DNA from: Terriglobia bacterium
GTDB lineage: Bacteria > Acidobacteriota > Terriglobia > JAIQFV01
NCBI GenBank assembly: GCA_020072965.1
Contig: JAIQFY010000056.1
Location: 1-34,206 of the forward strand
Direction: 5' to 3'
Length of the DNA: 34,206 nucleotides
The notes beneath the pieces were generated by a model, which did no database searches, was not told the DNA's origin, and saw nothing but the letters and a program-made list of their open reading frames with translations. Positions 2,107 through 23,544 of the stretch are shown here, in pieces; the first letter of the stretch is position 1, and each line of letters opens with the position of its first letter. Position numbers and translations under genes: made by a program.

Positions 2107-2679
2107 ATGATAATAGACATTAGAAGAATAGGGATAATTGCCCTCATCTTGTTGTCACTTATTGTTCTAATTCCCTCTGACACTGCTGGACAAACTGCGA
2201 CAACTCCAACTCGGACCCAGTGCCGACAATGGGATGATGCCTTCATAGCAACATTTAATATTGCGTTCTGGGTAACTCTGTTTTTGACTCTGTTGTGTAG
2301 CCTCCTGATCCCGCCTTTGTGTGGAAGATTCTACTGGTGGCTCACGCGTCCGCTGTTACGAGTTGTTTGGATTTCTTTGATCTTCCTGGGCATAAGCTCT
2401 CTAGCAGTAATCGTGTGGCCATATTCTGTTGGTTTGGGATGGCTCTGGTTTAATGGTGTTGATCCCAAATACCTCGATTGTGAATCAGTTCAATTTGGCG
2501 CCAGTGGACTTTTTGACGGACTGATGGGTAGGGGGATTGCAGCGATTGCCCTGTGGCCAGTGATGTTCGCGTGTCTCCTTATAGCTGCAATTGTGGGAGG
2601 TGGTTTGGCAATTGGCACTAGTAAAATTATGTGCCGATTTCGCGGCATAGGATCGCGAGTTAAGGAGGAATCCGCATGA
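2107..2679 (+). CDS. Small multi-pass membrane protein, first gene of the tubulin/actin/motor operon
   Basis: A 190-residue protein I do not recognise. Hydrophobic segments lie at about 8-24, 48-68, 84-106 and 145-172. The first is followed by SDTAGQTA and could be a cleaved signal peptide or a membrane anchor. Between segments 3 and 4 there is an aromatic/Gly-rich loop with a DxKYLDCE stretch. The C-terminus is basic (RFRGIGSRVKEESA), so it is probably cytoplasmic. The ATG at 2107 is preferred over the in-frame GTG at 2080 because a GGAG at 2095-2098 sits eight bases before it. Its stop overlaps the next start by four bases (ATGA), so it is translationally coupled to the tubulin-like gene. 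That points to a membrane partner of the GTPase, which is inference from context only. Confidence 0.75.
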   Translation: MIIDIRRIGIIALILLSLIVLIPSDTAGQTATTPTRTQCRQWDDAFIATFNIAFWVTLFLTLLCSLLIPPLCGRFYWWLTRPLLRVVWISLIFLGISSLAVIVWPYSVGLGWLWFNGVDPKYLDCESVQFGASGLFDGLMGRGIAAIALWPVMFACLLIAAIVGGGLAIGTSKIMCRFRGIGSRVKEESA

Positions 2680-4007
2680 ATTACAAGATCGTGTGCGTTG
2701 GTGGTACCGGCCAGATGGTTCTGCATTATTACCTGCAGCTCTATTTACTTGGTGTAATCGACCATCCATTCGACGCTGTCATCATTGACACTGACGAGAT
2801 TACGGGTAGCCTCCAAGCCGCCCAGAGCTTTCTGAGTGATCTTCAATATGGACCACAAAAAAACCAAGCTCTAGGCACAAAGATCCCTCTGATAGCAATG
2901 CTCCGGGTCAGACCCCAGGGGAAGGACACAGCCCTGCAGGCTCTCACCGGAAGGAGTACTTGTCCCAGCCTTCATCCAGCTCACGCATTCTTTAACGATG
3001 ACACCCTCAGCCAGAATCTCATGCAGGGTCTCTTTGCGCGTCCGTCTCTCTCAGCGGTGGTTTCTCTTGCAAGCCTGCAAGACGACACCCTCACTCCTGA
3101 GCCAGACTCTACGGTAGTACTTGTGTGTTCCGTCCTCGGAGGAACTGGTGGTGGATTAGCAGCTCCTCTTATAGATCTAATCAGGCAACGCGTCCGGAAA
3201 GCAAACATTAAGAATGTAAGAATTCGAGCGGTGTTTTTTGGAGAATATTTCACGCCAAATCAGCAGAAGATCCATGGTGCAGTTGAACGCTTTCAATCCA
3301 ATCGAACTCTTGTGTTGCGATCGATTCAGGAAGCCATGCAAGAAGTTCATAGTTTTTACATTGTTGGTGGGCCACACTCCGATACTTCCTTCGAGAAAAG
3401 ACCTGAAGAAGAGAAAAAGGGAGCGCATATCCCTTGGCCAATAGTCGAACAGCATCCATATTGGGAAGGAGCAAAGGCGCTAGAATTTCTTTTAACAGAT
3501 ACAACCACCGAAACAAAGCCGAGTTTCGTTGAGCGCGAGATCTATTCATTTGATCCTCCCTTTACGTTGCAAGCTGCGAAAAAAAGCCTGGAGCAAAGAC
3601 TCCATGTCGTCGGAAAGCTTATCCATAAACAAGCAATCGTTAGAATGTCGAAAGATCCCTGGGCTGGAATGATTTGGGGCGAACCATTGGTTAACACGGT
3701 CGGTCATTTTTGGAGCATTGCTGCAAAAGTTCAGGGTGGGAAAGATAGAGTGAAAGGTTTTCCGCTCGAGGTTCAACGAAGATTGGAATTCATCTGGGGC
3801 GGACAGGATGGCAGACAATCTGGGTTAGAAGTAGTGTTTCCAGAGATCACCGAATCCTACACGGTTGCTCCCAAGAGCATCAGACACATTTCATGGCCAA
3901 ACATCGAGCAGGCCACTTGGAACAAAGGCATATTTGAAGGGGTTGGAATGGCAGCGCACAAGGCCGCTGCAACGCTTTTGTATAGGTCACTTCGGGAAGG
4001 AGTATAG
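2676..4007 (+). CDS. Tubulin/FtsZ-superfamily GTPase (tubulin-like protein)
   Basis: A 443-residue predicted cytoskeletal GTPase. The N-terminus (KIVCVGGTGQMVL, 4-16) fits the first beta strand and T1 nucleotide loop of the tubulin/FtsZ fold. The hallmark T4 phosphate loop is present as GGTGGG (155-160), preceded by the strand VVLVCSVL and followed by the helix LAAPLIDLIRQ. The conserved family form is GGTG(S/T)G. I do not see the T7 catalytic NxDxxD loop of canonical FtsZ, so hydrolysis or polymerisation may differ. The middle (about 235-260) is charged and the C-terminal third is of unknown role. A good Shine-Dalgarno (AAGGAGG, about 2662-2668) precedes the ATG. It is sandwiched between a membrane protein gene and an actin-fold ATPase gene, two bases from the latter. 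It resembles the bacterial 'tubulin-like' families rather than division FtsZ. Confidence 0.82.
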   Translation: MNYKIVCVGGTGQMVLHYYLQLYLLGVIDHPFDAVIIDTDEITGSLQAAQSFLSDLQYGPQKNQALGTKIPLIAMLRVRPQGKDTALQALTGRSTCPSLHPAHAFFNDDTLSQNLMQGLFARPSLSAVVSLASLQDDTLTPEPDSTVVLVCSVLGGTGGGLAAPLIDLIRQRVRKANIKNVRIRAVFFGEYFTPNQQKIHGAVERFQSNRTLVLRSIQEAMQEVHSFYIVGGPHSDTSFEKRPEEEKKGAHIPWPIVEQHPYWEGAKALEFLLTDTTTETKPSFVEREIYSFDPPFTLQAAKKSLEQRLHVVGKLIHKQAIVRMSKDPWAGMIWGEPLVNTVGHFWSIAAKVQGGKDRVKGFPLEVQRRLEFIWGGQDGRQSGLEVVFPEITESYTVAPKSIRHISWPNIEQATWNKGIFEGVGMAAHKAAATLLYRSLREGV

Positions 4008-4009
4008 CA

Positions 4010-7000
4010 ATGGGCAAGTACTCAGAAATCCTTGAGAGCTCATGGTATGAAATGACTCTATACGCGGAATCAATCCCGCATTTGTTCCATTGGGATTTTG
4101 CGTATCTTTGGATGCTGGAAAAGGAGTCGGCCTTGAGGCCGAAGGGATGGGGCGAACGGCTACAGGCGTGGCGATATTTGATTGCAGCCCTTCTAACAAA
4201 TGAGCTAGAGGTGGAAACAGAAAGCATTCGCGCCCCTTTCACAAATTTCACGCAACCATTTGGTGTAACCGAGGTACAGTGGGTTCGGCTGCGAAGGGCC
4301 ACAAAGAAAATAGGCGTCTTGAGCCCCACGGTTTTCGTGCGTCCGTTACCAGATTACACCCCCGGAGAATTAAAGGAATGGGAAGCCCTGTCCCCGAACT
4401 CGTCCCGTTCAAGTGAATTCGGTCACTTCGTCAACCTCGCCACCCGGTATTTTGAAAAGCAGGCGCCTGAAGATTCAATACGATACAGGCTGGCCAGAAT
4501 TCTAGAGCGTGAATTTCCACACGACCTGATGGCAAATGCGCCAAGAGGACGATCGATCGCAATTCCAATGCTCCGTCAGTTTGTTTGGACTCAAGAGCCT
4601 AACGAGTCAACCTTGGAAAAGATCGACATTCTGGTCAAGGGAGAACAATTCCCAGTATTCATCCCCAGATGTGATCAATGTAGTTGCCTTCTAACGAGGG
4701 AAGAAACAGCTGATGCAATCACCGTAGAGGATCAAAACCATTTTCAAGTGGCTTGCCAAAACGGGCATCAAAATGTGGTTGCACTTTCCGATTTCCTTAT
4801 TTGGGTCCGGAATAACACCGAAGTGATTCTTTGGAGCCGTCAGGGGATTATCACAACTCCCGCCAATGGGTTCCCGCCAGAACCGGCTGTCCAAAATATC
4901 GACGTTCAATTCGAATGGAATGCAGCACAGATTGAGGGAGAGCAGCGCAGAAGGTTCATAAAGCTACGGTTTTCTGGTAAACAGATAAGTAAGCGTGAAG
5001 TGCCAAGCATCTTCTTCAAGAAAATCCTTGTACCTGGCAAATTTGAAAGTTTTTCTGGAATTCCTGTGCGATGGGAATGGCGAGACGCCTTAGTGACTGC
5101 AAATCCTGCTGATCTCGGCATCGAACGGAACCGCTCAGGACCTAAAATCACATATCAAAAACTCCGATTGAAGGGTTGGCCCGATTGCTTTCCCTATGTT
5201 TTTCCCAGTTTGAGTCTAATCCAGGAACCTGAGATGGCGGTCGGAATCTACCCAGATCGGAAGTTCGTTCCCGCAAGCTGGAAGTGGTATAGGGTCTTCT
5301 TGCATGGTTCAAAGCGAGGTAGTTACCGAATGGTGATGGACTCGGCAAAGCCCATTCTCCCCTGGCTATCTGACACTGAGGAGGGCCAGCCGCGATGGCT
5401 TTCAGTCGTGCAAGATACGAACCAGGATTTTGGCGTCACATATTCGTTTGGGTCCCCAGCTGATTATCCCAGGGAGGGAGGAAGGGCCGAACTTTTTGTT
5501 GCAATTGACTTTGGAACTACAAACACAACAGCCTATTGCCTGCAACCGATCGGACAGGGCCAGATCCCTGACGAAGTGAGGTCCGACCGGGACGGCATAA
5601 AGCCATCAGAACTCTGTTCTGCTGTTGAATGGCTGGCTGAGAACCCAGCCCTTGAATCTGCGCAGACTATCGGCAATTTCCTACCAAGTAGCCGATATGG
5701 TTCAGAGCGACCCGATCCGTATATCATCCCGTCGGCGATCTGGAGAATTGACGACAGGGTACTAATCAGGTGGGGGCCTGACAAGCCAATTCCAAGCGCG
5801 GAGGCAGTCACTGGCTTCAAATGGGACTATCCGGGGAGGCATAATGGTTTACTTAGGAAGGGTTACCTCAGAGAACTCTTCTTTCTGACGATTCCTTCAA
5901 TCCTCAAGAAGACTGCTCTTCGCACTCTGAATGTTACCTTTCATATAGGGTTTGCGTTCCCCTTGGCTTTTGATTACCGTGCCAGAAACGAAATGCATAA
6001 CCTCCTTGGCGAGCTGTCCTCTAATTTAAATACCCTAACGTCCTTTCAGTTTGAATCCTACTCGATTAATGAATCTTGGGCGTGTGTACGAGCCTTTGGT
6101 TCCCCCAATGTTGGGGAGACCTTTTTGGTTGCCGACATGGGGGGAGGCACGATGGATGTTGCGCTGTTTACTGTCGGCACAAATCAATATAGAGACATGC
6201 ATGAAATCGGCTCGCTTGAGTTTGCTGGGGAAGTATTCACGCGCGCCTTGGCTGAAAAAAAACACCCAGACGTAAGTGCGCAAGAATCATTTCATTGGGA
6301 GTTGCGGGATTTGATTGCGCAGGGAAAAGCCCAAGACAAGTACGGAAATGATCAAGATGCCCAGATAACACTTACCAAGTTCAACGCTTTAGCCTTTGAG
6401 TTCCTGCGAACCATGATAGCCGCTCACCGCCAGAGAAATCCAGAAACGGCTATTCATTTAGTGCTGGTGGGTAACGGTTGGCATTTGGATGACGCAATAA
6501 GTCCTGATGCGCAAAAGTTGGACCCAAAAGCTGTATTCAGGAATCATTACCGCTATCTCGTGTCAAGGATTGGAGAGCACAGTGTGACTTTATACGAGGG
6601 AGAACCTTTACAGAGCTTGCCAAGCTCCAAACATCTGGTCGTTGTTGGGGCGTTGAGAAATGCGTTTGGCAACGAGAGGCGTAGGGAGCTCGCTGAAGAT
6701 CCAAATTTATCAAAACTACCCGCCGGCCGTGGGCTCAAGTTCAAACCCGCGCAAAAACCGCCTGCGAGGATTGAATGGCATCAACTGGTTGGCGAGTCTG
6801 TAGGTTTCGTTGGATTGACTCAGAGTGATCTTCAAGGAGGCGCCCTAAATTTTGATCTGTCTGAAATGCCTCCTATGCTGCCAGAGTGGCGAGACTATTT
6901 CCTTGGGGCTTTCCGAATCTTAGATGAATCCAAAATATCTTATCCATCAGATAGTATTCTTCGCGACCAAGTCATGAATTCCATCTGGGGAAATCCGGCC

Positions 7001-7066
7001 AAGGTTACCCGTGGTCCTCTGCAACTCGTGTTGGAGAAACACTGGGTGAAATGGTTGAAAGAATAA
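4010..7066 (+). CDS. Actin/Hsp70-fold ATPase with a long N-terminal extension and zinc knuckles
   Basis: A 1018-residue protein in two parts. The C-terminal half (about 493-900) carries the ASKHA ATPase motifs in order: phosphate 1 at 498-506 (AIDFGTTNT), phosphate 2 at 707-716 (VADMGGGTMD) and an adenosine-motif-like strand-turn at 817-824 (LVLVGNGW). This is the DnaK/MreB/actin fold. No substrate-binding domain of ordinary Hsp70 is visible after it. The N-terminal half (1-490) is unlike chaperones and contains a likely zinc site: C221-x2-C224 and C249-x3-H253. The rest is Trp-rich with beta-looking segments. GGAAGGAG precedes the ATG. It sits directly after the tubulin-like GTPase and before the VWA lipoprotein, so it may be a filament or a nucleotide-switched assembly factor for this membrane machine. 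The role is inferred; the fold is well supported. Confidence 0.85.
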   Translation: MGKYSEILESSWYEMTLYAESIPHLFHWDFAYLWMLEKESALRPKGWGERLQAWRYLIAALLTNELEVETESIRAPFTNFTQPFGVTEVQWVRLRRATKKIGVLSPTVFVRPLPDYTPGELKEWEALSPNSSRSSEFGHFVNLATRYFEKQAPEDSIRYRLARILEREFPHDLMANAPRGRSIAIPMLRQFVWTQEPNESTLEKIDILVKGEQFPVFIPRCDQCSCLLTREETADAITVEDQNHFQVACQNGHQNVVALSDFLIWVRNNTEVILWSRQGIITTPANGFPPEPAVQNIDVQFEWNAAQIEGEQRRRFIKLRFSGKQISKREVPSIFFKKILVPGKFESFSGIPVRWEWRDALVTANPADLGIERNRSGPKITYQKLRLKGWPDCFPYVFPSLSLIQEPEMAVGIYPDRKFVPASWKWYRVFLHGSKRGSYRMVMDSAKPILPWLSDTEEGQPRWLSVVQDTNQDFGVTYSFGSPADYPREGGRAELFVAIDFGTTNTTAYCLQPIGQGQIPDEVRSDRDGIKPSELCSAVEWLAENPALESAQTIGNFLPSSRYGSERPDPYIIPSAIWRIDDRVLIRWGPDKPIPSAEAVTGFKWDYPGRHNGLLRKGYLRELFFLTIPSILKKTALRTLNVTFHIGFAFPLAFDYRARNEMHNLLGELSSNLNTLTSFQFESYSINESWACVRAFGSPNVGETFLVADMGGGTMDVALFTVGTNQYRDMHEIGSLEFAGEVFTRALAEKKHPDVSAQESFHWELRDLIAQGKAQDKYGNDQDAQITLTKFNALAFEFLRTMIAAHRQRNPETAIHLVLVGNGWHLDDAISPDAQKLDPKAVFRNHYRYLVSRIGEHSVTLYEGEPLQSLPSSKHLVVVGALRNAFGNERRRELAEDPNLSKLPAGRGLKFKPAQKPPARIEWHQLVGESVGFVGLTQSDLQGGALNFDLSEMPPMLPEWRDYFLGAFRILDESKISYPSDSILRDQVMNSIWGNPAKVTRGPLQLVLEKHWVKWLKE

Positions 7067-7079
7067 TTGGGGGCATGTG

Positions 7080-8639
7080 ATGAAATTAGGGTGCGTGAGG
7101 CAAATGTGTATCTCGGCCTTGCTTCTTCTGCTTGTCACAATGGCTTCTTGCAGGGGCTGCGCCTCAAGGAAAATTGACGAGGGTAAAACAGGACAATACG
7201 AAGATGCTTTGGCACCACTCTTCGTTGATGCGCCCGTCTCGTTTTGTCGGAAGAACCCGGTTCAGCCAAAGAGGGGAAAGGTCCAAATATTAATCGACAG
7301 TTCGGGCTCTTTGATTGGCTTTCAACATACGATCGCACCATTGGCAAATTGGATTAAGAACAGTTTTAGTGGTCTGCGGGAATCTATGATTGATCCAGTG
7401 GCTTCCAGTGTCTGCCAATTCGATCAAAACAAAGGTATTTCCAACTGCACTGATTTCAATCAACCCCTGGGTCCTTACCGTCCATCTGGGGACACTAACC
7501 TCCATGATGCGTTTCGAGCATCAAGAGATAACGACTTGACATTCATATTAACTGATGGCGTGGCAGCAACAGGCTCCCGTGGTTCAGGGGATTGCGCTGG
7601 CGGTGTGGACGCGGCGTGCGTCGCACGCGCAATGAAAGACGCAATGCACGCTCAGTCACTTGAAGGGGATGATGTTGACAGAGGTCTCTGGATATTTCCT
7701 GTTGTCGCACAGTATGATGGGACCTTTTTCACGGAACAGCCTATTTCTCCAACCGCTTTCCAGCCCAACGAAACCATTCGTCGCATCCGCTCCGATTCAG
7801 ATGTTGGCGCCCAAGTGGGTATCCAGAATCCGCACGTAAGTGCGGACGGGAACCTGGTTTTCCAATACCGGGGCCCTCGGATGATCCTCTTAATCGTAAT
7901 TGCCCGGTGGGCAGACCTGGGTCGTGCAGCAGTTCAGTCGCTTTGGGAACGGGCGGAATTCCTCGGGATTAGACGCATAGATCAGATGAGAGCTTACTCA
8001 TCTGGCTTGGCTACCTTATTGCCCATTGAAGTCTACCCCGGATTTCTCAATCCAGTCCGCTGGCAGAAATTGGCAGAGCGTGATTCAAGAGGCACGATTG
8101 ACGTCGTCCTGAAACCAGTGTTGGACAAATCCTCCATCACGATTCAATGTCCTAAGAGCGCCCAAGGCGAGGGGGATTTCTCCCTCACCTCCTCACCACT
8201 AAACGAAGGGCAGGTTGCGGGATGTGTTCCCATACGCCTCCTCCCGGCAATCAATCTTCGCTTGCGTCCGGTTAGGGATGAGGACGCAACAGACTTGTCG
8301 AAGTTTGTTAAGGATTACGGGCAGCAAAAAGGATCCTATAGTGACCTTGCACTTCATCTGGCATGTACCCCAGAGCTTGCCAGGCCCTGCAATTCCAACC
8401 CAATTGTCACCCAATGGACCGGGTATATGAATTACGAAGCTGCTGCCAATTGCCTGGCGTCGCCAGAATGCCATAGTCCAAGCCTCAGCCTAATCAAAGA
8501 TCTATCCACTTCCAATGCAAGCATCGAACCGCACCGTATCTTTGGTTTAACTGACACGGTTCGGGTTTTCTTTCAAGACATCTCTGATGATAAGAGAAGC
8601 ATCGTGTTAGGAACTCTGGATGTTTGTACTAATCAGTGA
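7080..8639 (+). CDS. Lipoprotein with von Willebrand factor A (VWA) domain
   Basis: A 519-residue exported lipoprotein. Residues 1-23 form a Sec signal with a Leu-rich core, and C24 lies in a lipobox-like M-A-S-C, so the protein should be anchored to the envelope facing the periplasm. The VWA domain (about 66-240) has a complete metal-ion-dependent adhesion site: D73-S-S-G-S77, T139 and the strand ILTDG with D159. Such domains bind protein partners through a bound divalent ion. The remaining 280 residues contain many Cys and end near a predicted beta-rich region I do not recognise. The ATG at 7080 is preferred to the adjacent GTG at 7077 because a G-rich site (7069-7073) spaces better. It lies 13 bases after the actin-fold gene and 10 bases before the ZorA-like gene. 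It is probably the periplasmic sensor or adaptor of the complex. Confidence 0.83.
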   Translation: MKLGCVRQMCISALLLLLVTMASCRGCASRKIDEGKTGQYEDALAPLFVDAPVSFCRKNPVQPKRGKVQILIDSSGSLIGFQHTIAPLANWIKNSFSGLRESMIDPVASSVCQFDQNKGISNCTDFNQPLGPYRPSGDTNLHDAFRASRDNDLTFILTDGVAATGSRGSGDCAGGVDAACVARAMKDAMHAQSLEGDDVDRGLWIFPVVAQYDGTFFTEQPISPTAFQPNETIRRIRSDSDVGAQVGIQNPHVSADGNLVFQYRGPRMILLIVIARWADLGRAAVQSLWERAEFLGIRRIDQMRAYSSGLATLLPIEVYPGFLNPVRWQKLAERDSRGTIDVVLKPVLDKSSITIQCPKSAQGEGDFSLTSSPLNEGQVAGCVPIRLLPAINLRLRPVRDEDATDLSKFVKDYGQQKGSYSDLALHLACTPELARPCNSNPIVTQWTGYMNYEAAANCLASPECHSPSLSLIKDLSTSNASIEPHRIFGLTDTVRVFFQDISDDKRSIVLGTLDVCTNQ

Positions 8640-8649
8640 AGAGGTTAAT

Positions 8650-10503
8650 ATGCTTGACAGTTTTCTTCCCTACATAACAGGATTCGGAGATATCAGTAGA
8701 CAGTTAATACAGCGCTACTTTACATTCGGCTGGTTCTTTGCGATCGCTCACTTCGTTGTAATTTATTATATTTTCCTGTCCTGGCGACAGATCACCAGAG
8801 AAATTCTCACTCTTAAGGAGTGGGGGAACAACAGCTTAGGCCGTCGAGAGTTAGCTGACCGAATGCGCAATCAGGATAGTCTATCGACTATCGACAATTC
8901 TCCAGCCAAAATTAAAGGATCTTTGAATCGGATCGGAAAGACGACTACGGTACTTAGCCTATTTGTAGAAGAGTGCGAGCAACTCGGAAAACAAGGCTTC
9001 TTTGTTCCAATGACTGATTTTTCGGATCGCCTGGATTCCACGATGGAAGGAATGATTGCGGAGCTGCATGATCGCATCAATCTTCTACTTTACGTAGGTA
9101 TTGCAGGAACTTTATTTGGGGTATTTGAGTTTTCCTATAAAGCTCGGGTGGGAGGACCCGTCTCCACACTAGCCGAAGCGCTCTCGGACAGTATGTCCAA
9201 GGCATTTCCAGTTGGTTTTATGGGGATTGTTTTGACGATAATATTTCAAATATGGGCCACATCTCCCGAGAGTAAATTACGCGAGGCCTTATCCAGAGCA
9301 ACTCAGAAGGCCCTTCGGATTCGGAAGGAAGTGTCGATATCGCAAGCAACGCTCGTTGAGCAGGCAACTGAAAGAATTCAGAGTGGATTGAGGCCTCTTG
9401 AGGATTTAAGGCAGACCCTCACAGAGAGTATCGAGCCTGTAGTAAAAGATTTTGGAGAGCGTCTCGAGAAATCCCTGGAGCTGGTTAAAGTGCAATTTGA
9501 CCAGCTGGACAAAACCACGAAAGGGGTTCACGAGGCTGTCGGGAGCATTCACGATGGGATTGACCTTCTCGGAAAAACGGCGAGCAGCTTGAAAAAGTTG
9601 GTGAAAGATACACCAGAGGTACTTGCGAACCTAAACACACTCCAACAGCAACAAATCGATAGCCTTCACACCTTCAATCAAGGACTGAGCGAACATCGCG
9701 ATCAGGCGTCATTGGTCACATCCTCCCTCGATAAGACATTGAAAGAAATCGAGGCCTTTGCTCACACCCTAAATAGTCTTCCTAGGACACTCAGCGAAAA
9801 TACCAAAGCCGTATTTGGAGAGCTGGCTCAGAATTCGCTTGCGGCATGGAATACGGCCGCCAGCGATCTCATGAGGAATGTCCAGACTGAATATACCAAT
9901 TACATAAATGCCATCAATACCCGGGAGAACGCGATCACCGAATCTATCCACAATGCAAACAAAGAGCTAGAGATACTGGCAAACCAGGCATACACCCTAT
10001 TGGAGCGCCCTGTCGCCGGTGCGATCGATACAGTCAAGAGAGAGGTTACAGAAGGACTGCAAAAGTTGGACCAAGTGCTGGCTGTACGGTATCCAGAAGC
10101 GATTAGCAACATACAATCTCTCACCTCAAGTCTGGCAGACGTTATGCATCAGATTCAAAGGGTTCAAGGGGAGTTTGCCACATGGCTAAAAGATGCCGAG
10201 CGCTCTCGCGAGGTAATCAGCAGCATTCATGTGGGCCTCACAGAAATGCTAAAGGATTTTACTCAGCCGGATCACAGGCTTCCGAAGGCCAACATTGTAT
10301 CTCTGCTTGAGACGAACTCCACACAATTGGTCGAGATGAATCAACTGATGGGTAAAATTCATGGCGCCCTGCCCCATTCTGGAGATGGGTTGGGAGCAAA
10401 AGTTGACAATTCGGTCCGCCTCCTCGAGCAAATAAACCTTGGGATCGATCGGCTCAACACAAAAGAGAAGAAAGGATTTTTTCACAGGATAATCGGAACG
10501 TAA
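8650..10503 (+). CDS. MotA/TolQ/ExbB-family channel subunit with long coiled-coil tail (ZorA-like)
   Basis: A 617-residue inner-membrane protein. Membrane spans lie near 25-45, 144-163 (LLLYVGIAGTLFGVFEF) and 185-205 (FPVGFMGIVLTIIFQIW). The last two match the paired Gly/Thr-containing helices of MotA/TolQ/ExbB stators that line a proton or sodium path. From about 210 to the C-terminus the protein is almost entirely helical, with heptad-like charged/Leu patterns: a cytoplasmic coiled coil of roughly 400 residues. That long tail is the feature that separates ZorA of Zorya defence from flagellar MotA. The start at 8650 has a GAAGAGG site upstream; the earlier in-frame ATG at 8620 overlaps the VWA gene and lacks one. 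It should pair with the OmpA-type protein encoded 37 bases downstream as a 5:2-type rotary motor, as known for the family. Confidence 0.84.
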   Translation: MLDSFLPYITGFGDISRQLIQRYFTFGWFFAIAHFVVIYYIFLSWRQITREILTLKEWGNNSLGRRELADRMRNQDSLSTIDNSPAKIKGSLNRIGKTTTVLSLFVEECEQLGKQGFFVPMTDFSDRLDSTMEGMIAELHDRINLLLYVGIAGTLFGVFEFSYKARVGGPVSTLAEALSDSMSKAFPVGFMGIVLTIIFQIWATSPESKLREALSRATQKALRIRKEVSISQATLVEQATERIQSGLRPLEDLRQTLTESIEPVVKDFGERLEKSLELVKVQFDQLDKTTKGVHEAVGSIHDGIDLLGKTASSLKKLVKDTPEVLANLNTLQQQQIDSLHTFNQGLSEHRDQASLVTSSLDKTLKEIEAFAHTLNSLPRTLSENTKAVFGELAQNSLAAWNTAASDLMRNVQTEYTNYINAINTRENAITESIHNANKELEILANQAYTLLERPVAGAIDTVKREVTEGLQKLDQVLAVRYPEAISNIQSLTSSLADVMHQIQRVQGEFATWLKDAERSREVISSIHVGLTEMLKDFTQPDHRLPKANIVSLLETNSTQLVEMNQLMGKIHGALPHSGDGLGAKVDNSVRLLEQINLGIDRLNTKEKKGFFHRIIGT

Positions 10504-10540
10504 CGGTATATACATTCGCTTTTCAACATGAGGTCGTCAT

Positions 10541-11296
10541 ATGCGGGAAAGATATAATCCATGGCCGGCATTTGTTGATCTATTTTCCGCCCTATTCATT
10601 GCAGCCCTTGCAGGCTTTATCTTGATTGCAGCTGCGTTCCACCCCGATGACCAGAGTAAGAGTAATGGTGACGAGGCCCAACAAAGAGAGTATGTAAACG
10701 GTAGGATCACCCGAGTAAAGCAGACCGCAGATGATGTTACTAGCAAGATTCAAGACGAGTTAAATAGTACCGGTGGCTTGCAAGGTAAAGTCGGCCGTTG
10801 TGGCGAGGAAGAGACCTGTGTTGACCTTTATATACATTTTGACCCCAACAAAGAAGAGATCAAGTCCGGGGAGCGCAAAGGCTTGGAGAACACCATTGAA
10901 ATAATAAAGAATTCCATCAGCCAGCTTTCCGAAGGTAAAGCTGAAATGCTTCGAGATCTCGAGATATGCATTGAAGGCCATACCGATAGCACTCAGGTTT
11001 CACACTCGACAGATGAGCACACGAGATTTGCCTTCAACTGGAACCTAAGTGGAAGACGCGCAACCTCTGTCCTCCACGAGTTTGCGGCTAAGGGCATGAG
11101 CCCAAGAGACTACAATATTGTAGCCATTGGCTATGCTGATTCCAAACCGGCGTGTGACGAGAGCGTAGACACAACCTCCACATGTCGTGATCAGAACCGG
11201 CGCACTACTTTACTGTTACGACCTGATCACAGGAGGATTGAAGAGCGCTTACTGGGAGAACATAACAAACGATTACACCAGCACAAGAGCCCATAG
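10541..11296 (+). CDS. MotB/ZorB-like protein: one membrane span plus OmpA peptidoglycan-binding domain
   Basis: A 251-residue partner of the ZorA-like subunit. After a short cytoplasmic N-terminus comes a single span (about 10-32, starting AFVDLFSALF) with an acidic residue, D13, at the position of the proton-carrying Asp of MotB/ZorB. A charged linker (33-90) leads to an OmpA_C domain (about 95-235): a DLYIHFDP strand, the EGHTDS turn, the NLSGRRATSVLHEF helix, GYADS and a closing DQNRRTTLLLRP with the NRR signature. This domain binds peptidoglycan in the periplasm. Two Cys pairs (around 87-92 and near 205-214) may form disulfides. A GAGG precedes the ATG. It is the last gene of the operon; no clear terminator follows. 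Its small size and early Asp argue for a stator/motor role rather than a plain structural OmpA protein. Confidence 0.86.
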   Translation: MRERYNPWPAFVDLFSALFIAALAGFILIAAAFHPDDQSKSNGDEAQQREYVNGRITRVKQTADDVTSKIQDELNSTGGLQGKVGRCGEEETCVDLYIHFDPNKEEIKSGERKGLENTIEIIKNSISQLSEGKAEMLRDLEICIEGHTDSTQVSHSTDEHTRFAFNWNLSGRRATSVLHEFAAKGMSPRDYNIVAIGYADSKPACDESVDTTSTCRDQNRRTTLLLRPDHRRIEERLLGEHNKRLHQHKSP

Positions 11297-11594
11297 GCAG
11301 GGAATGGTTAATTGGTGCTCCTGAAGGCCCAAGTACGCTGTCTGAACGAGAGGACGCACCAATGGTAAGGACAATATTCTAAAGAAGTGCAAAAGGAGCA
11401 GTTGCGTGTTCCTCTTTGAAGCGATCCACCTACAGGATGAGACTGTCCATCCTTGCTGTTAGTTGGAGGAGAAGAATATCGTATGGGCGTTGACCCATTT
11501 CCTTCCTTCATTGCAAATTTCCCTTATTTGGCCCGAGTGCCGGCAACAAATGGCCCTCAACCTTGAGAGAATCGGGGAATTGAAGCGGCCCGTG

Positions 11595-12689
11595 ATGCGT
11601 CGAAGACTATATTTTCTCATCATTGTTGTTTCTCTAAGTCCCTCGTTAGCATTCAGTCAGGGTAATGGAAAACTTCAACTTCACTTTATGGATGTGGGAC
11701 AGGGAGACGCGGCGGTGCTTATCTCCCCCCGAGGCGAGGTAGTGCTATTTGATAATGGTGTCCAGGGGGAGTGTGACCAACTAATTTCCTACCTTCAGCA
11801 GCTTGGTATTAGTAAGATAAATTATAATATTGTCAGTCACTACCACTCGGATCATATTGGATGCACACCCGGGATATTGGCTAGGTTCCCGCTGATGAAG
11901 GAGGGGATAGACCGCGGTGGTAGCTATCCCAGTGGGACGTTTCGAAACTATGTGAAAGCAGTGGGAGGGCATCGCAAAACTGCGGTTACTGGAATGAAGG
12001 TTAATCTTGACGTCGACTCCGCAAGTCCAGTTGAGATTGAAATGGTGGCGTTGAATGGCGACGGTTTCCCCACGACCAACGAAAACGATCTTAGCCTAGT
12101 AGCCGTCGTTCACTATGGGGAATTCAATGCTGAAGTCGGCGGGGACCTAAGCGGATACGATACTAGAACCTACGACGATGTTGAATCCAGTGTTGCTCGA
12201 AGAGTTGGGCACATCGATGTGTACAAGGTCCACCACCATTGTAGTCAATACAGTTCAAATAGCACATGGCTCTCAACGGTCAAACCGACGATTGCAATTG
12301 TTTCTGTTGGTAATGGAAACACTTATCACCATCCGACCGTTAATTGCATTGAGCGGCTGCATAAGGCAGGTGTTAAGACTTATTGGACAGAGCTTGGAAG
12401 TGGCGCAACACCCCAACCAGGGATGGATATTGTAGGGGGTAACATCATAATTGAAGTTGCAGGGGGTGGTCAGACATTTGAAGTCACGCACAAACCAAAC
12501 CAACTCAATTCACCAAAGGCAGGGACCCAATCTGTAAACAAAACTCTGGCGACCTTTGCGTGGAGCAAAAGGTCAATCGTTTATCATTACAGTGACTGCG
12601 AGTACGTAAGGAAAATTAGTCCAGCAAATCTGCAGCGGGGGGACTCCCCACCCACTGGAAAGAAGCTCCATCTGGGGTGTCCAAAATAG
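11595..12689 (+). CDS. Secreted metallo-beta-lactamase-fold hydrolase (ComEC MBL-domain type)
   Basis: A 364-residue exported protein. Residues 1-21 are a classic signal peptide (MRRRL then a hydrophobic core, cut after AFS). The MBL fold starts LHFMDVGQGDAA (29-40) and has the metal motif H82-x-H84-x-D86-H87-x-G, as in COG2333/ComEC-Rec2 C-terminal domains. These hydrolyse DNA or phosphodiester-type substrates outside the cytoplasm. A later His-rich VHHHC segment probably adds metal ligands. The last 40 residues form a small Cys/His motif (H331, C335, C362) often seen at the tail of this protein group and probably another metal site. The start at 11595 is chosen for the signal peptide; in-frame ATGs at 11463 and 11550 exist. 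It lies about 300 bases after the ZorB-like gene on the same strand, so a link to that system is possible but unproven. Confidence 0.78.
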   Translation: MRRRLYFLIIVVSLSPSLAFSQGNGKLQLHFMDVGQGDAAVLISPRGEVVLFDNGVQGECDQLISYLQQLGISKINYNIVSHYHSDHIGCTPGILARFPLMKEGIDRGGSYPSGTFRNYVKAVGGHRKTAVTGMKVNLDVDSASPVEIEMVALNGDGFPTTNENDLSLVAVVHYGEFNAEVGGDLSGYDTRTYDDVESSVARRVGHIDVYKVHHHCSQYSSNSTWLSTVKPTIAIVSVGNGNTYHHPTVNCIERLHKAGVKTYWTELGSGATPQPGMDIVGGNIIIEVAGGGQTFEVTHKPNQLNSPKAGTQSVNKTLATFAWSKRSIVYHYSDCEYVRKISPANLQRGDSPPTGKKLHLGCPK

Positions 12690-12796: not shown

Positions 12797-14812
12797 ATGC
12801 AAACACCGCCTGAACCTGCATGCAACACCGCGGTATCCTCACGGGCTTGGTATGACGCGACCATCGCTGAATTCCTGAGAACCCAACCCGATGCCATTCT
12901 AGGACGACTGGCTAGAAACAGCGATTTCACTCTGCTTTCGACACAGAAGGAGGCGTGGCTGGCCCAGATTGCCATACTGCAGGACCGCCTCGTTGATTTG
13001 ACAGGCTCGTTGTTCTTGGAGTTTAACATTCCACGGATGGGACGACGCATTGATGCGGTGCTACTCATCGGCCCGGTTGTGTTTGTGATCGAGTTCAAAG
13101 TGGGGGAAATTACATTTGAACGCGCAGCGGTGGATCAGGTGTGGGATTACGCTTTAGATCTCAAGAATTTTCACGAGGCCAGTCATTCCGTTTCCATTGT
13201 TCCTATTCTCATTGCTACTGCTGCCACGGTATCGCCGACGCTGAACTTACTCTCTGACGGGGACAAGGTTTACCGCCCGATCCAAGTACACCCCGCCGGC
13301 TTTCGCCAAGCGCTTGACCTGGCTTTGCAAATCGTGAATGGGAAAGCGGTCGATGAGCAAGGATGGTCGCGCGCCCCGTATCATCCCACGCCCACCATCG
13401 TGGAAGCCGCGCGCGCACTTTATGCCCATCACTCGGTAGAAGCCATCGCTCGATACGATGCGGGTGCGCAGAACCTTCGCGTCACTTCGTGCCGCATTGA
13501 AGAACTGGTGGACGAGGCGAGAGCGCAAAACCAAAAGGTCATTTGCATCGTCACGGGTGTACCCGGAGCCGGCAAGACACTGGTCGGATTGAACATTGCG
13601 ACTCGTCGTCGAGACATGAAAGAACCGACACACGCAGTCTTTCTTTCAGGGAACGGCCCGCTTGTCGCTGTGCTCCGGGAAGCACTTACCCGTGACGAGG
13701 TTGCACGTCAAAAAAGTCATGGTATTCGAGTCCGAAAGGGGAAGGTTGCCGAGAGTATCAAAGCTTTTATCCAAAACGTTCATCACTTTCGCGACGAGGC
13801 GTTGATCGACTCCGGGCCTCCGGTGGAACACGTTGTCATCTTCGATGAGGCGCAACGTGCGTGGAATATGCGGCAAACCGCTAGCTTCATGCGACGAAAA
13901 AAGAATCGCCCAGAGTTTTCCCATTCAGAGCCTGAGTTTCTTATTTCATACATGGACCGCCATTCTACGGACTGGGCTGTCATCGTGTGCCTGGTCGGTG
14001 GCGGGCAGGAGATCAACACTGGCGAAGCAGGAATCGATGCCTGGATCGAGGCCATAAACTCAAGATTTCCGCTTTGGCATTTGTACATCTCATCGAGACT
14101 AACCGACAGGGAGTATGCGGCCGGGAAGGCTCTTGGAGCCGTACGTCAGCGACAGAATACTCACTTCGATGACACCCTGCATCTCGCCGTCTCGATGAGA
14201 TCGTTTCGGGCTGAGAATGTTTCAGCTTTCGTGAAGGCACTACTCGATTGCGAAAAACAACACGCCCATGAGGCCTTCTCACAACTCATGGACCGCTACC
14301 CGATCAACGTCACCCGCGACTTGAACTTGGCCAAGCAATGGATCCGCGCTCATGCCAGAGGAACCGAGCGGTTTGGGTTGGTAGCGTCTTCGAAGGCCCA
14401 ACGTCTCAAACCTCATGCGATTGATATTCGAGTGGATGTTGATCCGGTCCATTGGTTTCTCAATGGCAAGGAGGACACGCGGTCGAGCTACTATCTCGAA
14501 GATGCCGCCACAGAGTTTCAGGTGCAGGGATTGGAACTCGACTGGGCATGTGTGACCTGGGACGGTGACCTGCGCTTCACCGGCACAGGATGGACCTTCC
14601 ATGACTTCCGAGGCGATAGGTGGACCAATATCGCAAATCCTGACAATCGGCGCTACCTCCTCAATGCTTACCGAGTTTTACTCACTCGCGCTCGCCAAGG
14701 AATGGTAATTTTTGTTCCGCCCGGTGACCCGAGTGATCCAACACGGTCGCCTGGGTTTTACGATTCGACCTTCGAATTCCTCACCGATTTGGGCATTCCC
14801 GCACTGCCTTGA
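12797..14812 (+). CDS. PD-(D/E)XK-like nuclease fused to Schlafen-3/DUF2075-type SF1 helicase
   Basis: A 671-residue protein. The N-terminal region (about 40-130) has a restriction-like nuclease pattern: E75, D86 in GRRIDAVLL, and the E99-F-K101 strand preceded by a hydrophobic core. The helicase part starts at about 248 with Walker A (GVPGAGKT, 254-261) and has Walker B/DExx as FDEAQR (349-354). Late SF1 motifs are visible: a VQGLELDWACVTWDGDLRF block and YRVLLTRARQGMVIFVPPG near the C-terminus. This layout matches DUF2075/Schlafen group 3-like DNA/RNA helicase-domain proteins, which are frequent in defence islands and act on nucleic acid. No good Shine-Dalgarno precedes the ATG, and the protein starts with Thr/Pro-rich residues. 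It is a single gene, convergent with the HNH gene at 15080-16216. Confidence 0.82.
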   Translation: MQTPPEPACNTAVSSRAWYDATIAEFLRTQPDAILGRLARNSDFTLLSTQKEAWLAQIAILQDRLVDLTGSLFLEFNIPRMGRRIDAVLLIGPVVFVIEFKVGEITFERAAVDQVWDYALDLKNFHEASHSVSIVPILIATAATVSPTLNLLSDGDKVYRPIQVHPAGFRQALDLALQIVNGKAVDEQGWSRAPYHPTPTIVEAARALYAHHSVEAIARYDAGAQNLRVTSCRIEELVDEARAQNQKVICIVTGVPGAGKTLVGLNIATRRRDMKEPTHAVFLSGNGPLVAVLREALTRDEVARQKSHGIRVRKGKVAESIKAFIQNVHHFRDEALIDSGPPVEHVVIFDEAQRAWNMRQTASFMRRKKNRPEFSHSEPEFLISYMDRHSTDWAVIVCLVGGGQEINTGEAGIDAWIEAINSRFPLWHLYISSRLTDREYAAGKALGAVRQRQNTHFDDTLHLAVSMRSFRAENVSAFVKALLDCEKQHAHEAFSQLMDRYPINVTRDLNLAKQWIRAHARGTERFGLVASSKAQRLKPHAIDIRVDVDPVHWFLNGKEDTRSSYYLEDAATEFQVQGLELDWACVTWDGDLRFTGTGWTFHDFRGDRWTNIANPDNRRYLLNAYRVLLTRARQGMVIFVPPGDPSDPTRSPGFYDSTFEFLTDLGIPALP

Positions 14813-15079: not shown

Positions 15080-16216
15080 CTACTCGGCGAAGTGAAATGC
15101 TGTCCGAATCCGCTCGAGGTCAGCACTCACGAATTCTCTCTGGAAATGCCACAGCTTATAATCGGTCTGTAACCTCAGATAGATAACCCTTGCGGCACTC
15201 CACGTCCTGTCGGGGTGACGTTCCCACCCAATGGGCTCAGCAATTGTCTTCAACGAAATTGCCTCCCTTGAACTCGGGGAAAACCTGGTACTCCAACGCA
15301 GCACGTGTTCGCCGGCCGCAAGAAAATCACGCTTGTAGCCATTGCATGTTTTGTCAGCGACAACGAGATTCTCGATCCCGTTGTCCGGGTATCGTGACCA
15401 GGGAATAAAATGGTCCAATTCAGCGGAATGGGGCTCGCGGATTCGCGTGGAGCAATAAAAGCATCGCTCTTGCTGAAGTTCCCATATTCCGCCACGAATC
15501 CTCGTCGTCGACGTTCTGTCTACTCCGAACAGAAAATCCTCCAACTGAGCGTCATGCAGCTTGTTCAGACGCGAAACCATGGCGGCCCATTTTCTGTGGA
15601 TTAGTGGCCGGAGGAGGCCGTTCAATTGCAAAAGGTATTCTCCCACGCCGGGTTTGAACCGAATCTGGTTATCGAAATGTCCACGCTCACCGCGCTGGTA
15701 TTTCAGAACCTCCTCTCTCTGGACGTCCTCGGTCCAGCCGATCTCGTAAACGAAACGATCCTCGGTCGTCTCAAACCTCTGAACTCGCGGGAGAGGCATT
15801 TGAATTAGCTTCCATTCGATGCGATTCACCAAACGTTCAAATGCAGGTCGTGCTGCTGCCCTAGCCTGGGCAAGAGGCGTCGACAGGTCCGGGGCATGTT
15901 TGGTGCGAAACGTTGCAATGGAAGAAACGATTTCAGCTTGCCCATTGGTGTTTTGGAGCAAAATCGAAGGGCTGGAATCCGGATTGAAGAAAGATGTCTG
16001 AGGCCAGTAGATCTCGATAACTTTTTCTGCCAGTTGGCGGGTTGTCACGCTCTCTGGGGCGAGTCCGGACTCCAACGAATTCTCCATGCATAAATCCATC
16101 AAACCGATCAGAACCGCGTACTTGTAAGTCGCCGTGAATCTTCCTTCATCAAGCAGTGCGAGCAGCTTCTCGGCGAAACCGATGATGCCGCGTCCTTTAT
16201 CGTCAGGTTGAGTCAT
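15080..16216 (-). CDS. HNH endonuclease, second gene of the HIT-HNH pair
   Basis: A 378-residue protein. The N-terminal 240 residues are helical with no recognised domain. The HNH nuclease spans about 245-300: C252-x2-C255, the catalytic D268-H269 within ELDHFIPWS, N283 in the IENLV turn and C291-N292-x2-K295. This is the form found in many phage-defence and CRISPR-type HNH domains. Its start overlaps the stop of the HIT gene by ATGA (16213-16216), so the two are translationally coupled and probably work together. The gene converges on the helicase gene at 12797-14812. The substrate is unknown. The large N-terminal region may recognise the target or a partner. Confidence 0.82.
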   Translation of the reverse strand: MTQPDDKGRGIIGFAEKLLALLDEGRFTATYKYAVLIGLMDLCMENSLESGLAPESVTTRQLAEKVIEIYWPQTSFFNPDSSPSILLQNTNGQAEIVSSIATFRTKHAPDLSTPLAQARAAARPAFERLVNRIEWKLIQMPLPRVQRFETTEDRFVYEIGWTEDVQREEVLKYQRGERGHFDNQIRFKPGVGEYLLQLNGLLRPLIHRKWAAMVSRLNKLHDAQLEDFLFGVDRTSTTRIRGGIWELQQERCFYCSTRIREPHSAELDHFIPWSRYPDNGIENLVVADKTCNGYKRDFLAAGEHVLRWSTRFSPSSREAISLKTIAEPIGWERHPDRTWSAARVIYLRLQTDYKLWHFQREFVSADLERIRTAFHFAE

Positions 16217-16596
16217 TCCTTTTCCCAGTACGGCGCTTGCGAAGGCAAAACCCAGCGGATCCCCCCACGCGGGTCTTCTACGTCACCAAGGTAGCGAGGA
16301 ATGATGTGCAGGTGAGCATGTGCTACGGTCTGCCCAGCCGCCTTTCCCGCGTTAATGCCAATATTGTACCCGTCTGGTGAATGTTTCGTCTCAATGTGCT
16401 TTCGAGTGAGGTCGACTAGCCCCCAAATCTCCTCTTGCTCTTCTTCTGTCAGTCTGAAAAAGTCGATTTCATGCCGTCGAGGCACGATTAACACGTGCCC
16501 GGGGCTGACTGGAAATTTATCGAAAAATGCGACGGCAAGATCGGTTTGTAAGATCGTGTCACCCAAAGAAATCCGCTCACAGAAAACACATTCCAT
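16213..16596 (-). CDS. HIT-family nucleotide hydrolase/transferase
   Basis: A 127-residue protein with the histidine-triad motif H93-A-H95-L-H97-I-I and a zinc-type C3-x2-C6 at the front (MECVFCE), as in the HINT/Fhit-like branch. These enzymes cleave nucleoside phosphoramidates or dinucleoside polyphosphates. The start at 16596 is chosen because CxxC-type HIT proteins begin just before the first Cys. The open frame extends upstream to 16809 with low-complexity, unprotein-like sequence. It is the first gene of a two-gene operon with an HNH nuclease. An HIT enzyme coupled to a nuclease is unusual for housekeeping and could reflect a nucleotide-signal or AMP-transfer control step, which is inference. 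Confidence 0.85.
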   Translation of the reverse strand: MECVFCERISLGDTILQTDLAVAFFDKFPVSPGHVLIVPRRHEIDFFRLTEEEQEEIWGLVDLTRKHIETKHSPDGYNIGINAGKAAGQTVAHAHLHIIPRYLGDVEDPRGGIRWVLPSQAPYWEKE

Positions 16597-16940
16597 GCCA
16601 TGAATCTTAGCAAGATTCGAATGACCCGTCACGTCCGTAGGTTTCTTTTGAGGTCTTGCCTCCCACAGTGAGCCCATTTCATTGTCTGAGAATAACGCTA
16701 AGCTCAAACTCACTCGTCGACGATAAGAGACACTGGGTCGCAAGCGGGAGGCCGGGGCCGGCCTTGATTCACATTGAGCCCATAAGCGAGAACCCAATCC
16801 CAAACCCAACAGGCGCTATCTCTTGAGACGATTCGCACAAGCCCATTGGAGGATATCATTGGGACTAGGTGTTTTCATTTCATAAAAGACCCCAATCATC
16901 TCCTGTGTCACATATACAGAAAATTCGATGCGAGGACCCT
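16597..16940. other. Divergent intergenic region
   Basis: This spacer separates the leftward HIT-HNH operon from the rightward DUF6361 operon, so it should hold promoters for both. I see no clear -35/-10 pairs, and no repeats beyond a GGCCGGGGCCGGCC-like GC palindrome near 16752-16763. Confidence 0.4.
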
Positions 16941-18164
16941 ATGATCTCAACTTTTTCATGGCTTGACTACTCAGAGAAGGAAAGACGTAGGGTCGTTGAA
17001 GTCATCAAGGCCTTTGAAGAGCCGGATACTCGGGACGAACTTGGAATCGGGGCGGTGAGGGATGGCTTTGCGGATCTTTTTTTCCCTGGGACAAGCACGA
17101 TCCAGACACGGGCCAAGTATTTCTTCTTCGTCCCGTGGGTCTATCTCCAACTCGAGCGGCAAAAGGTTCCGTCGAGTGAAATCGCCCGGAAGGCTCGCCA
17201 ACATGAAATCAGCCTTATCGATGCATTATGCAAGTCTGGGGAGAAGGACGGGGTGATCGGGATTGAAGCCCGCTCCACCCTTAAGCGGTTACCCAGCAAT
17301 ATCTACTGGCAGGGCCTGGCGACTTGGGGTATTCGCCTTTATCCAGGCTCGCAAGACCAGTATCACCGTTCAATCGGTGCTTTTTACCAGAGTAAACAAG
17401 AGCAACCGCGAAATGACGACGGCGAGCCAATTGATGGGAGTATATCCCGCAACTGGCATGCCCCGTTGCCCCATGCCCCTGGAGGTTTTCCTGATCAATC
17501 AACGTTTCGCCTCAAACCGACTGAAGCAGAATACCTCCGCGAACGCATCATGGCACGCTTGCCGGGTACGCTGTTGGCGTTCCTGGTTGATCGAGGGCAC
17601 AAGTCCGACCCAGTCGATTTCCCTTGGGAGCATCCGCAACACGCTGAATTTCCGGCTCGTTGTCGTGAGCAACTTGAGCACGCCCGAAATTTTTCCGAAA
17701 TGATCCACGGCGCCCAGCTGCTCTACAACCTTCTGCTGGCAGAAAAGACTGCCGACAAGGAAAAACTTGGCAGCTATACCAAGCGTCTTGAAGAGTGGTT
17801 CACGAGAATTCGGACGCGGTCCACGGCTTTCGACAGCTGGGATCGCCGACAATTCTGGGACGTTGTCGTTTCAGGAGGAGCGAGAGTCACGCTACTTACT
17901 CAATCCTTCATTAACACTTGGCTGGATTTGGCTTCTGGCCTGACGTCCGCAGCGACCCTTATCAAGGACGATCACGCACGCAGGTTGATTTGTGAGCGCG
18001 AACTCGCTTTGAAGCGCGATCAAGCACGCCTTCAGAATCCCCGGGCCCTCGAACTTTGGAGTGGTGCGGCTGGAACTGCCCAACTTAATTACCGCTGGCG
18101 AATAGCACAAACAATTGTAGGAGACATCCTCGAGGGCCTATTACGGGATAAGACAAATGCTTGA
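16941..18164 (+). CDS. DUF6361 family protein, first gene of a PLD/helicase defence-like cassette
   Basis: A 407-residue protein whose N-terminus (FSWLDYSEKERR, then DELGIGAVRDGFADLFFPGTS and TRAKYFFFVPW) matches what I know of the DUF6361 family. Biochemical function is not established. It is mainly helical with no nuclease or NTPase motif I can see; later parts contain WHAPLPHAPGGFP and a Trp/Arg-rich C-terminus. The ATG at 16941 follows a GAGG five bases upstream. The open frame begins at 16869, but that extension looks non-coding. Its last eight bases overlap the start of the phospholipase D-like gene, so the three downstream genes form one translationally coupled unit. It probably acts as a structural or recognition subunit for the nuclease and helicase. 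Confidence 0.75.
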   Translation: MISTFSWLDYSEKERRRVVEVIKAFEEPDTRDELGIGAVRDGFADLFFPGTSTIQTRAKYFFFVPWVYLQLERQKVPSSEIARKARQHEISLIDALCKSGEKDGVIGIEARSTLKRLPSNIYWQGLATWGIRLYPGSQDQYHRSIGAFYQSKQEQPRNDDGEPIDGSISRNWHAPLPHAPGGFPDQSTFRLKPTEAEYLRERIMARLPGTLLAFLVDRGHKSDPVDFPWEHPQHAEFPARCREQLEHARNFSEMIHGAQLLYNLLLAEKTADKEKLGSYTKRLEEWFTRIRTRSTAFDSWDRRQFWDVVVSGGARVTLLTQSFINTWLDLASGLTSAATLIKDDHARRLICERELALKRDQARLQNPRALELWSGAAGTAQLNYRWRIAQTIVGDILEGLLRDKTNA

Positions 18165-23000: not shown

Positions 23001-23246
23001 TGGGTGTATCAGATTGAAGGTGGTGCGAAAATTGAACGTCATGTACCGGCATTGCCTCTGAGTCGTGACATGGACCGGCTCAATGCGTTGCGCCGGTCGC
23101 TTGTGATCTATCGCATGGTCTTCGGGCAGCCTCGACAGGAGGATCTCATGAATTATCTTCTGACTAATGTGCCCGCCTCAGAATTACTTCATCTCATCGA
23201 AGAGCTTCGCATTGATCTGAGTCCACCACGATCATTAACTGGGTGA
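20001..23246 (+). CDS. Large SNF2/DEAD-type superfamily 2 helicase
   Basis: A 1081-residue protein. The first helicase lobe has Walker A ADEVGLGKT (about 45-53, with K52), the DEFQ box at 259-262 replacing DEAH, and motif III SATPYK at 297-302. The second lobe, near 900-960, has TTSIGQEGLDFHQYCH, then NPVDIEQREGRIQRYKGH with the arginine-finger motif VI. Between the lobes lies an insertion of several hundred residues, rich in acidic residues near 690-710. This is the design of DNA-translocating helicases in defence operons. The GTG start at 20001 overlaps the PLD-like stop by four bases with AGAAGG immediately before it. It completes the DUF6361-PLD-helicase cassette, in which it most likely scans or unwinds target DNA for the nuclease. 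Confidence 0.85.
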   Translation: MSGQLARPNVDEILRGLKDFQRETVDYVFHRLYLDPDHTRRFLIADEVGLGKTLVARGLIAKAIDYLWHVDRIDIVYICSNADIARQNINRLNAGAGDSFSLPTRPTLLPIVISDLSKKKVNYISFTPGTGLDLTSGLGIIKERAVIYHLLDRAWGLSGAGPLNVLQGLAGKENFRETVHSLKKDHPIDQKLADEFGTILSSRNDLRTRFDQLCDHFSRARINIPEEQESERRKFVADIRALLAQTCIKALEPDLIILDEFQRFKYLLDDDDETGELARQLFNYSDEAGEARVLLLSATPYKMYTLTDEAGAEDHYQDFLRTLSFLQDNSNGTGDFESLLSEYRHELYRLGDGANARLPEIKKELEARLRRVMVRTERIGVSKDRDGMLTEILGQNSRLHADDLESYIALQNIGRMLEQGDLMEYWKSAPYLLSFMEDYELKSGFDDAIDSREGSGELARIISNARGLVIPWNEITSYSQIDPNNARLRGLIADTIEVGAWKLLWMPPSLPYYQPGGAFSDPGLARLTKRLVFSSWKVVPKVIATLLSYEAERLMIRSFEKDPQNPPENSPDARKRRRPLLRFTRTDERLSGMPVLGMIYPCVTFARKFDPLSFMPAEATKEGPPALGDVISLVQKRIEELLPSIIPSEQRPGPTDETWYWAAPILFDLQLEEGATRDWFASEGLAEEWQGEEGSEAEGEEESLWSAHVDKAKQLVAGEIQLGTLPQDLSHVLALMALAGPGVAALRALSRLCGGPSSLSNPAVRTSAATVGWAFLRLFNLPEATALLRGINSQEPYWERVLEYCVDGNLQSVLDEYVHILRESEGLMWKEAETVAEDVSSAACQALSLRTSTLGLDTIKLESDETISMEPKGLRARFALRLNEEKVDGTEQITRADQVRRSFNSPFWPFVLATTSIGQEGLDFHQYCHAVVHWNLPSNPVDIEQREGRIQRYKGHAIRKNVALRIGRPAVTKEFGDPWECLFSAAEQQRPADASDLIPYWVYQIEGGAKIERHVPALPLSRDMDRLNALRRSLVIYRMVFGQPRQEDLMNYLLTNVPASELLHLIEELRIDLSPPRSLTG

Positions 23247-23544
23247 TGAGTCAGTTTTTCTTCAAAGGTTGCATGGAGGGAATGCGGACTCCGACTATCC
23301 ACGGGTCCTTCCTTAGAAATTGAATTGCACCTGGCACAGATCCGGTCGTCCCATTTGAATTTTCTTCCGATGAGGCAGCGAGCAACTATCTCCAAACTGG
23401 ATTCTTGATTAATCGGAACGAAGGATTCTGACGATAAGTTAATTTGTGTAACAAGCATCGGGGCTGGCCCGAAGAGCGGAACTGGCCTCATTTTTCAAAG
23501 GCACCAAACTTTAACTCGGGACCTCCCGACGATTGGATCTTGAA

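Follow-up and report, generated by a model that had tools for sequence, protein, structure and literature searches.

A six-gene Acidobacteriota operon encoding predicted tubulin-fold and actin-fold NTPases beside a ZorAB-like motor pair

What might a bacterial operon do that encodes a predicted tubulin-fold GTPase next to a predicted actin-fold ATPase, together with a VWA lipoprotein and a motor-like membrane pair? Tubulin-fold and actin-fold proteins normally belong to separate systems, with FtsZ-FtsA the textbook contact between them. Here, we analysed the window, a contig stretch of 34,206 nucleotides from a Terriglobia bacterium (JAIQFY010000056.1), in which six same-strand ORFs, A-F, are packed within positions 2107-11296 of the + strand and are followed by a neighbour, G:

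2107-2679, + strand: gene A, small membrane protein with an N-terminal signal/TM and ~3 more TM segments
2676-4007, + strand: gene B, predicted tubulin/FtsZ-fold GTPase of 443 aa, its C-terminal part helical and with no match to a tubulin C-terminal domain
4010-7066, + strand: gene C, 1018 aa, with a predicted actin/Hsp70-fold ATPase domain at residues 493-890
7077-8639, + strand: gene D, VWA-type protein with an intact MIDAS and a lipoprotein-like signal
8620-10503, + strand: gene E, ZorA/MotA-like membrane subunit with ~3 TM segments and a ~412-aa coiled-coil-type cytoplasmic tail
10541-11296, + strand: gene F, ZorB/MotB-like subunit with one TM carrying an invariant Asp13 and an OmpA peptidoglycan-binding domain
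11463-12689, + strand: neighbour G, secreted metallo-beta-lactamase-fold protein (ComEC-like) with the base composition of the operon

Adjacent genes overlap by 4 bases (A/B) and 20 bases (D/E) and are otherwise spaced by 2, 10 and 37 bases, with good Shine-Dalgarno sequences upstream of B and C. A promoter and terminator scan gave a signal no better than shuffles. The ATG of gene A at 2107 lies within a GTG ORF beginning at 2080, and gene E has an alternative start at ATG 8650. The original prediction for this DNA had described six close or overlapping genes on one strand and quoted motifs from them, all of which are present; its account of their composition holds for five named parts and passed over the first gene, A, a homologue of which also sits before the tubulin gene in other loci of what we call clade I. 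G is a possible seventh member in the window copy, and was not seen in other copies.

No library model matches B, C or D at its cut-off. B is seen weakly by sequence libraries, with a Tubulin_2 score of 21.9 bits against a cut-off of 27 and a Pfam Tubulin match that is also below cut-off. It nevertheless contains the motifs VGGTGQ and SVLGGTGGGL, the latter a glycine-rich SxxGGTGGG T4 loop, and its AlphaFold model (pLDDT 76.5) matches FtsZ over residues 1-293 with a Z-score of 15.3. The modelled GTPase fold, combined with the T4 loop, places B in the tubulin/FtsZ superfamily. Structural matches stop near residue 300 and a clear T7 catalytic-loop motif is not seen in the B alignment, so that GTP hydrolysis and polymerisation by B are uncertain. 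Canonical FtsZ is present in all ten member genomes tested, and B is therefore an extra paralogue.

The motifs DFGTTNT (residues 500-506) and DMGGGTMD (709-716) of C correspond to positions at which DFGTTN and DxGGGT are invariant or nearly so in the C-family alignment. Sequence matches of C go to DnaK, and residues 493-890 of its structural model align with DnaK, MamK and MreB (Z 19-20) as well as FtsA (Z 18.5). On this model C has the two-lobed actin fold with phosphate-binding loops of the ASKHA superfamily. The 'giant actin-fold ATPase' first proposed does contain an actin-fold domain, but this accounts for just ~400 residues; the ~490 residues N-terminal to it carry zinc-ribbon-like cysteines and were not assigned a fold, and beyond the actin domain the model has low confidence. 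Both models, that of B and that of C, were built on 5-6 sequences. SrfB, considered as the actin-like relative, gave no match in Pfam scans of the window C and five related proteins.

D, to which no library model matched, is classed as VWA from its MIDAS pattern alone. The set is complete (D74-S76-S78, T140 and D160) and invariant in an alignment of five members, with a degenerate MIDAS in the D-like protein of the more distant locus L040. Together with the lipoprotein-like signal, this agrees with the earlier proposal of a MIDAS protein that faces the periplasm, as D is predicted to do.

The last two genes probably encode a MotA/MotB-type pair. The best full-length match of F to a solved structure is type I ZorB (8VVN chain B, E 2.7e-13), its OmpA domain is recognised at E 2.5e-9, and the PADLOC ZorB models match four of four F members tested. 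Asp13 of F, invariant in four members, aligns to ZorB Asp24, a residue linked to ion conductance on which Zorya defence critically depends (PMC11890865). A TM aspartate in the B subunit and an OmpA peptidoglycan-binding domain are the features expected of a MotB-type protein, and their joint presence in F points to such a role. E has ~3 TM segments and ~412 residues beyond the last of them, a tail with heptad periodicity (shuffle p 0.007). Its matches to ZorA fall mainly in the coiled coil, so its membrane part is assigned from the arrangement of the TM segments, from the tail and from the constant order E-F. The prediction of a MotA/MotB-type pair with a ZorA-like coiled coil is thus supported by a clearly ZorB-like F and, less securely by sequence, by the long-tailed membrane protein E.

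The operon was first presented as a single unit, and the same gene order indeed recurs in other Acidobacteriota instead of homologues scattered singly. In clade I, a complete A-B-C-D-E-F set in the same order is found in genome G863, where identity to the window proteins is 47% for B and 44% for C; a distant complete A-F copy (20-33% identity) is present in G625, the A-F set of G608 is spread over two contig ends (L024, L025), and that of G394 (L007) is cut off by a contig end. In G142 (L008) B and C form one ORF of 1478 aa in an otherwise unchanged gene order. A decayed copy in G384 (L009 7444-10724) has a frameshifted tubulin gene B, and its actin gene C is interrupted by a DDE_3 transposase gene. 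Among the matches listed from a scan of contigs for copies beyond Acidobacteriota there were, besides the decayed copy L010, proteins matching the actin-fold part alone. The system is rare and patchy: under a sampling almost wholly of Acidobacteriota, it occurs in 4/399 genomes of the class, the source genome included, and is absent from the single other sampled genome of the genus.

Two further clades were reached via weaker profile matches. In clade II (L038, L039 and L040), placed apart from clade I, tubulin and actin parts share one ORF of 1428, 1625 and 1599 aa, respectively. Downstream of the fused gene, L038 has E-like, F-like and VWA-lipoprotein genes and L040 has D-like, E-like and F-like genes; the L039 locus is cut by a contig end. 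By hhalign, the halves of the fused proteins align to B at E 1.6e-10 and to C at E 1.5e-20. The clade III loci L036 and L037 contain a VWA lipoprotein gene, then separate tubulin (567 and 583 aa) and actin-like (1154 and 1156 aa) genes; profile-profile comparison links the actin-like protein to C at E 5.5e-19 and the tubulin to B more weakly (69% probability). Further genes of these two loci (L036 1753-8342, L037 8248-11378), placed after those for tubulin and actin, encode zinc-ribbon TPR proteins together with a secreted, conserved protein of coiled-coil type.

Trees of B and C recover the same main clades and place the L008 fusion within clade I, separate from the fusions of clade II. Fusion therefore appears to have arisen at least twice, or once and then been undone, of which we take twice as the simpler. 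Conserved order and fusions rule out unrelated genes that merely happen to be adjacent. At the clade III loci L036 and L037, the tubulin, actin and VWA genes occur with no recognised motor. Not every version therefore needs one, which suggests a core of tubulin, actin and VWA to which the motor is added as a module of clades I and II. A looser relative is seen at L035 927-6796, where three genes stand side by side, for a C-like actin-fold protein, a VWA lipoprotein and a DnaK-like protein, ahead of one for a zinc-ribbon/PKD-type protein; the contig edge there shows no tubulin gene.

Profile, fold and conservation evidence supports the composition, the trans-envelope layout and the ZorAB-like motor put forward in the original prediction. 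How these parts assemble, which way a signal runs, what triggers it and what purpose it serves we infer as follows. E and F would form a ZorAB/MotAB-type ion-driven stator, in which F holds peptidoglycan via its OmpA domain and the coiled-coil tail of E extends into the cytoplasm. B, with its tubulin fold for GTP, and C, with its actin/Hsp70 fold for ATP, would form an obligate complex at the inner membrane, close to the E tail and to the small membrane protein encoded by A, with a stoichiometry that is most likely 1:1 because the two are fused in two separate clades. On the envelope side, D may use its metal site to bind a ligand or protein, and so report or anchor an envelope change. When the envelope is perturbed, F would engage, ions would flow and the E tail would move, switching the nucleotide or assembly state of B-C. 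This outside-to-inside direction is suggested by the long tail, a hallmark of ZorA; we know of no such cytoplasmic tail in TolQ or ExbB. A trans-envelope machine whose motor acts via a long cytoplasmic tail on a tubulin-actin hetero-NTPase is our preferred reading, held tentatively and at slightly less than an even chance.

The case for a new class of bacterial machine seems to us evenly balanced. In it, a GTPase of tubulin fold would unite with an ATPase of actin fold into a single hetero-NTPase, encoded as one polypeptide in several lineages, and an ion-motive motor spanning the envelope would drive or gate the pair. If true, two major cytoskeletal folds would be joined in one working part. 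Fusion into one chain in two clades implies a direct 1:1 mechanical or allosteric partnership. If this part is coupled to a ZorAB-type motor, such motors could feed cytoskeletal-fold NTPases, beyond nucleases, and Zorya-like signalling would gain a second kind of output.

The purpose first suggested as possible for such a machine was defence, and the surroundings of the window copy form a defence island:

109-1236: HNH endonuclease-domain gene, left of the operon
12797-14812: Schlafen group 3 helicase protein, PADLOC candidate defence family PDC-S41 (E 3.6e-281)
15080-16809, minus strand: HNH_4 gene overlapping a HIT-domain gene
16869-23246: ZacABC defence operon (DUF6361, PLD-like, helicase), with nearly full-length PADLOC matches (ZacA 6e-140, ZacB 3e-181, ZacC 0)

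A gene for a voltage-gated-type ion channel (Ion_trans, 23533-24441) adjoins ZacC. The operon could on this basis be a dedicated anti-phage system, a Zorya relative in which damage to the wall by phage triggers the motor, and the tubulin-actin module, as cytoplasmic effector in place of a nuclease or helicase, blocks or kills the infected cell. The ZorAB-like pair and the island itself fit this reading, as do the patchy rarity of the system, a GC content of 47-51% in the operon versus 53-56% in the HNH, helicase and Zac genes, and the copy decayed through transposase insertion. Rarity, lower GC and decay are, however, what would fit an accessory, mobile function, and do not indicate which. The flanks of five other clade I copies (96 ORFs) contain no clear defence system: eight PADLOC models match there at E <= 1e-20, a raw count without a random-region control, and these matches look generic, resembling RtcR-type regulators, DNA polymerase, adenosine deaminase, helicase and similar proteins, with Pfam recognising tRNA synthetase, RNase PH/PNPase, PurH, Suf and other housekeeping genes. 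Because of these flanks, the island setting is assigned to the window copy and is not established for the system. The operon also has no nuclease, toxin or Zorya effector, and none of the viral, phage and plasmid collections searched holds a copy, which likewise sets aside a phage or plasmid origin. Of the trans-envelope machine for defence originally envisaged, the layout and motor are supported and the defence part is weak; we consider a dedicated anti-phage system possible but doubtful.

FtsZ and FtsA, of tubulin and actin fold respectively, are known to work as partners, which raises the alternative of a device for remodelling or constricting the envelope, a side-line counterpart to FtsZ-FtsA with Tol-Pal, in which a tubulin-actin scaffold at the membrane would work with a motor that moves the outer layers via D. 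The alignment of the C model with FtsA, a motor family that takes in TolQR and the location of copies among housekeeping genes are consistent with such a device, and Makarova and Koonin (2010) proposed membrane remodelling for FtsZl1-VWA-OmpA loci (PMC2875224). It would, however, be a rare and patchy one in genomes that, wherever tested, also have canonical FtsZ, the long tail of E has no known equivalent in TolQ/ExbB, and D is not an OmpA-type Pal, all of which makes this alternative unlikely. Least probable by far, and in our view very improbable, is an Hsp70-like chaperone machine for envelope proteins, with C as chaperone-type ATPase, B as regulatory GTPase and D as substrate-binding side. 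The DnaK matches of C, the DnaK-like neighbour at L035 and the service of VWA domains as chaperone partners in MoxR systems (PMC7159879) speak for it; against it are the lack of a recognisable Hsp70 substrate-binding domain in C and the confinement of that neighbour to one divergent locus.

Among the closest known systems is Zorya, with which the operon shares a ZorB-type subunit, with its peptidoglycan-binding OmpA domain and conserved aspartate, beside a long-tailed membrane protein. It differs in its tubulin-fold and actin-fold NTPases, VWA lipoprotein and small membrane protein, and in having a motor-less related clade. Neither ZorC/ZorD, ZorE nor any other Zorya effector was found among the operon proteins and near neighbours, the sole ZorD match near the operon being a weak helicase match to ZacC, and with the effector missing Zorya proper is ruled out.

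The FtsZ-like/VWA/OmpA system predicted in 2010, which the original prediction mentioned, is a different one. In both, a VWA protein and at times an OmpA protein accompany a divergent tubulin-fold protein, and the VWA component of the FtsZl1/VWA/GTPase system has its counterpart in D with its full MIDAS. FtsZl1 (Pfam Tubulin_2) is, however, a protein of ~1000 aa with a long coiled coil, found with a P-loop GTPase and kinases (PMC2875224), whereas B has 443 aa and scores below the Tubulin_2 cut-off. In five Acidobacteriota FtsZl1 loci (L047-L051), at least two of which carry VWA genes, none of the families B-F has a homologue at E < 0.01, and a B profile search did not match the FtsZl1 proteins there. 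Size, score and the lack of the operon families in these five loci rule out FtsZl1 membership and argue for a different system. In L049 and L051 the canonical Tubulin_2 (FtsZl1) genes adjoin VWA genes, as in the 2010 prediction, and no actin-like gene is present.

Tubulin-family, Hsp70-family and vWA proteins also occur in the DO-GTPase/GAP1-N2 systems, predicted membrane-near conflict systems in which DO-GTPase and GAP1 define the system and the tubulin-vWA and HSP70 themes are non-overlapping; MotA does not appear in the text describing them (Kaur et al. 2020, PMC7159879). GAP1 is not at the operon loci, GAP1-N2 being absent from 9/10 member genomes and on another contig in G863, which together with the non-overlapping themes rules out this identity. 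FtsZ-FtsA and Tol-Pal are separate core machines, encoded apart; with them the operon shares tubulin-fold and actin-fold partner proteins and an ion-driven trans-envelope motor, and it differs in that each member genome tested has canonical FtsZ as well. No named system with this six-gene set was found in the open-licence literature, in keeping with the original view of a combination without a name. With the caution that the nearest predicted systems, FtsZl1-VWA and DO-GTPase-tubulin/HSP70, are uncharacterised too, we regard an NTPase core of tubulin fold and actin fold, side by side or in one chain, as what distinguishes the operon, even though each part of it comes from a known superfamily.
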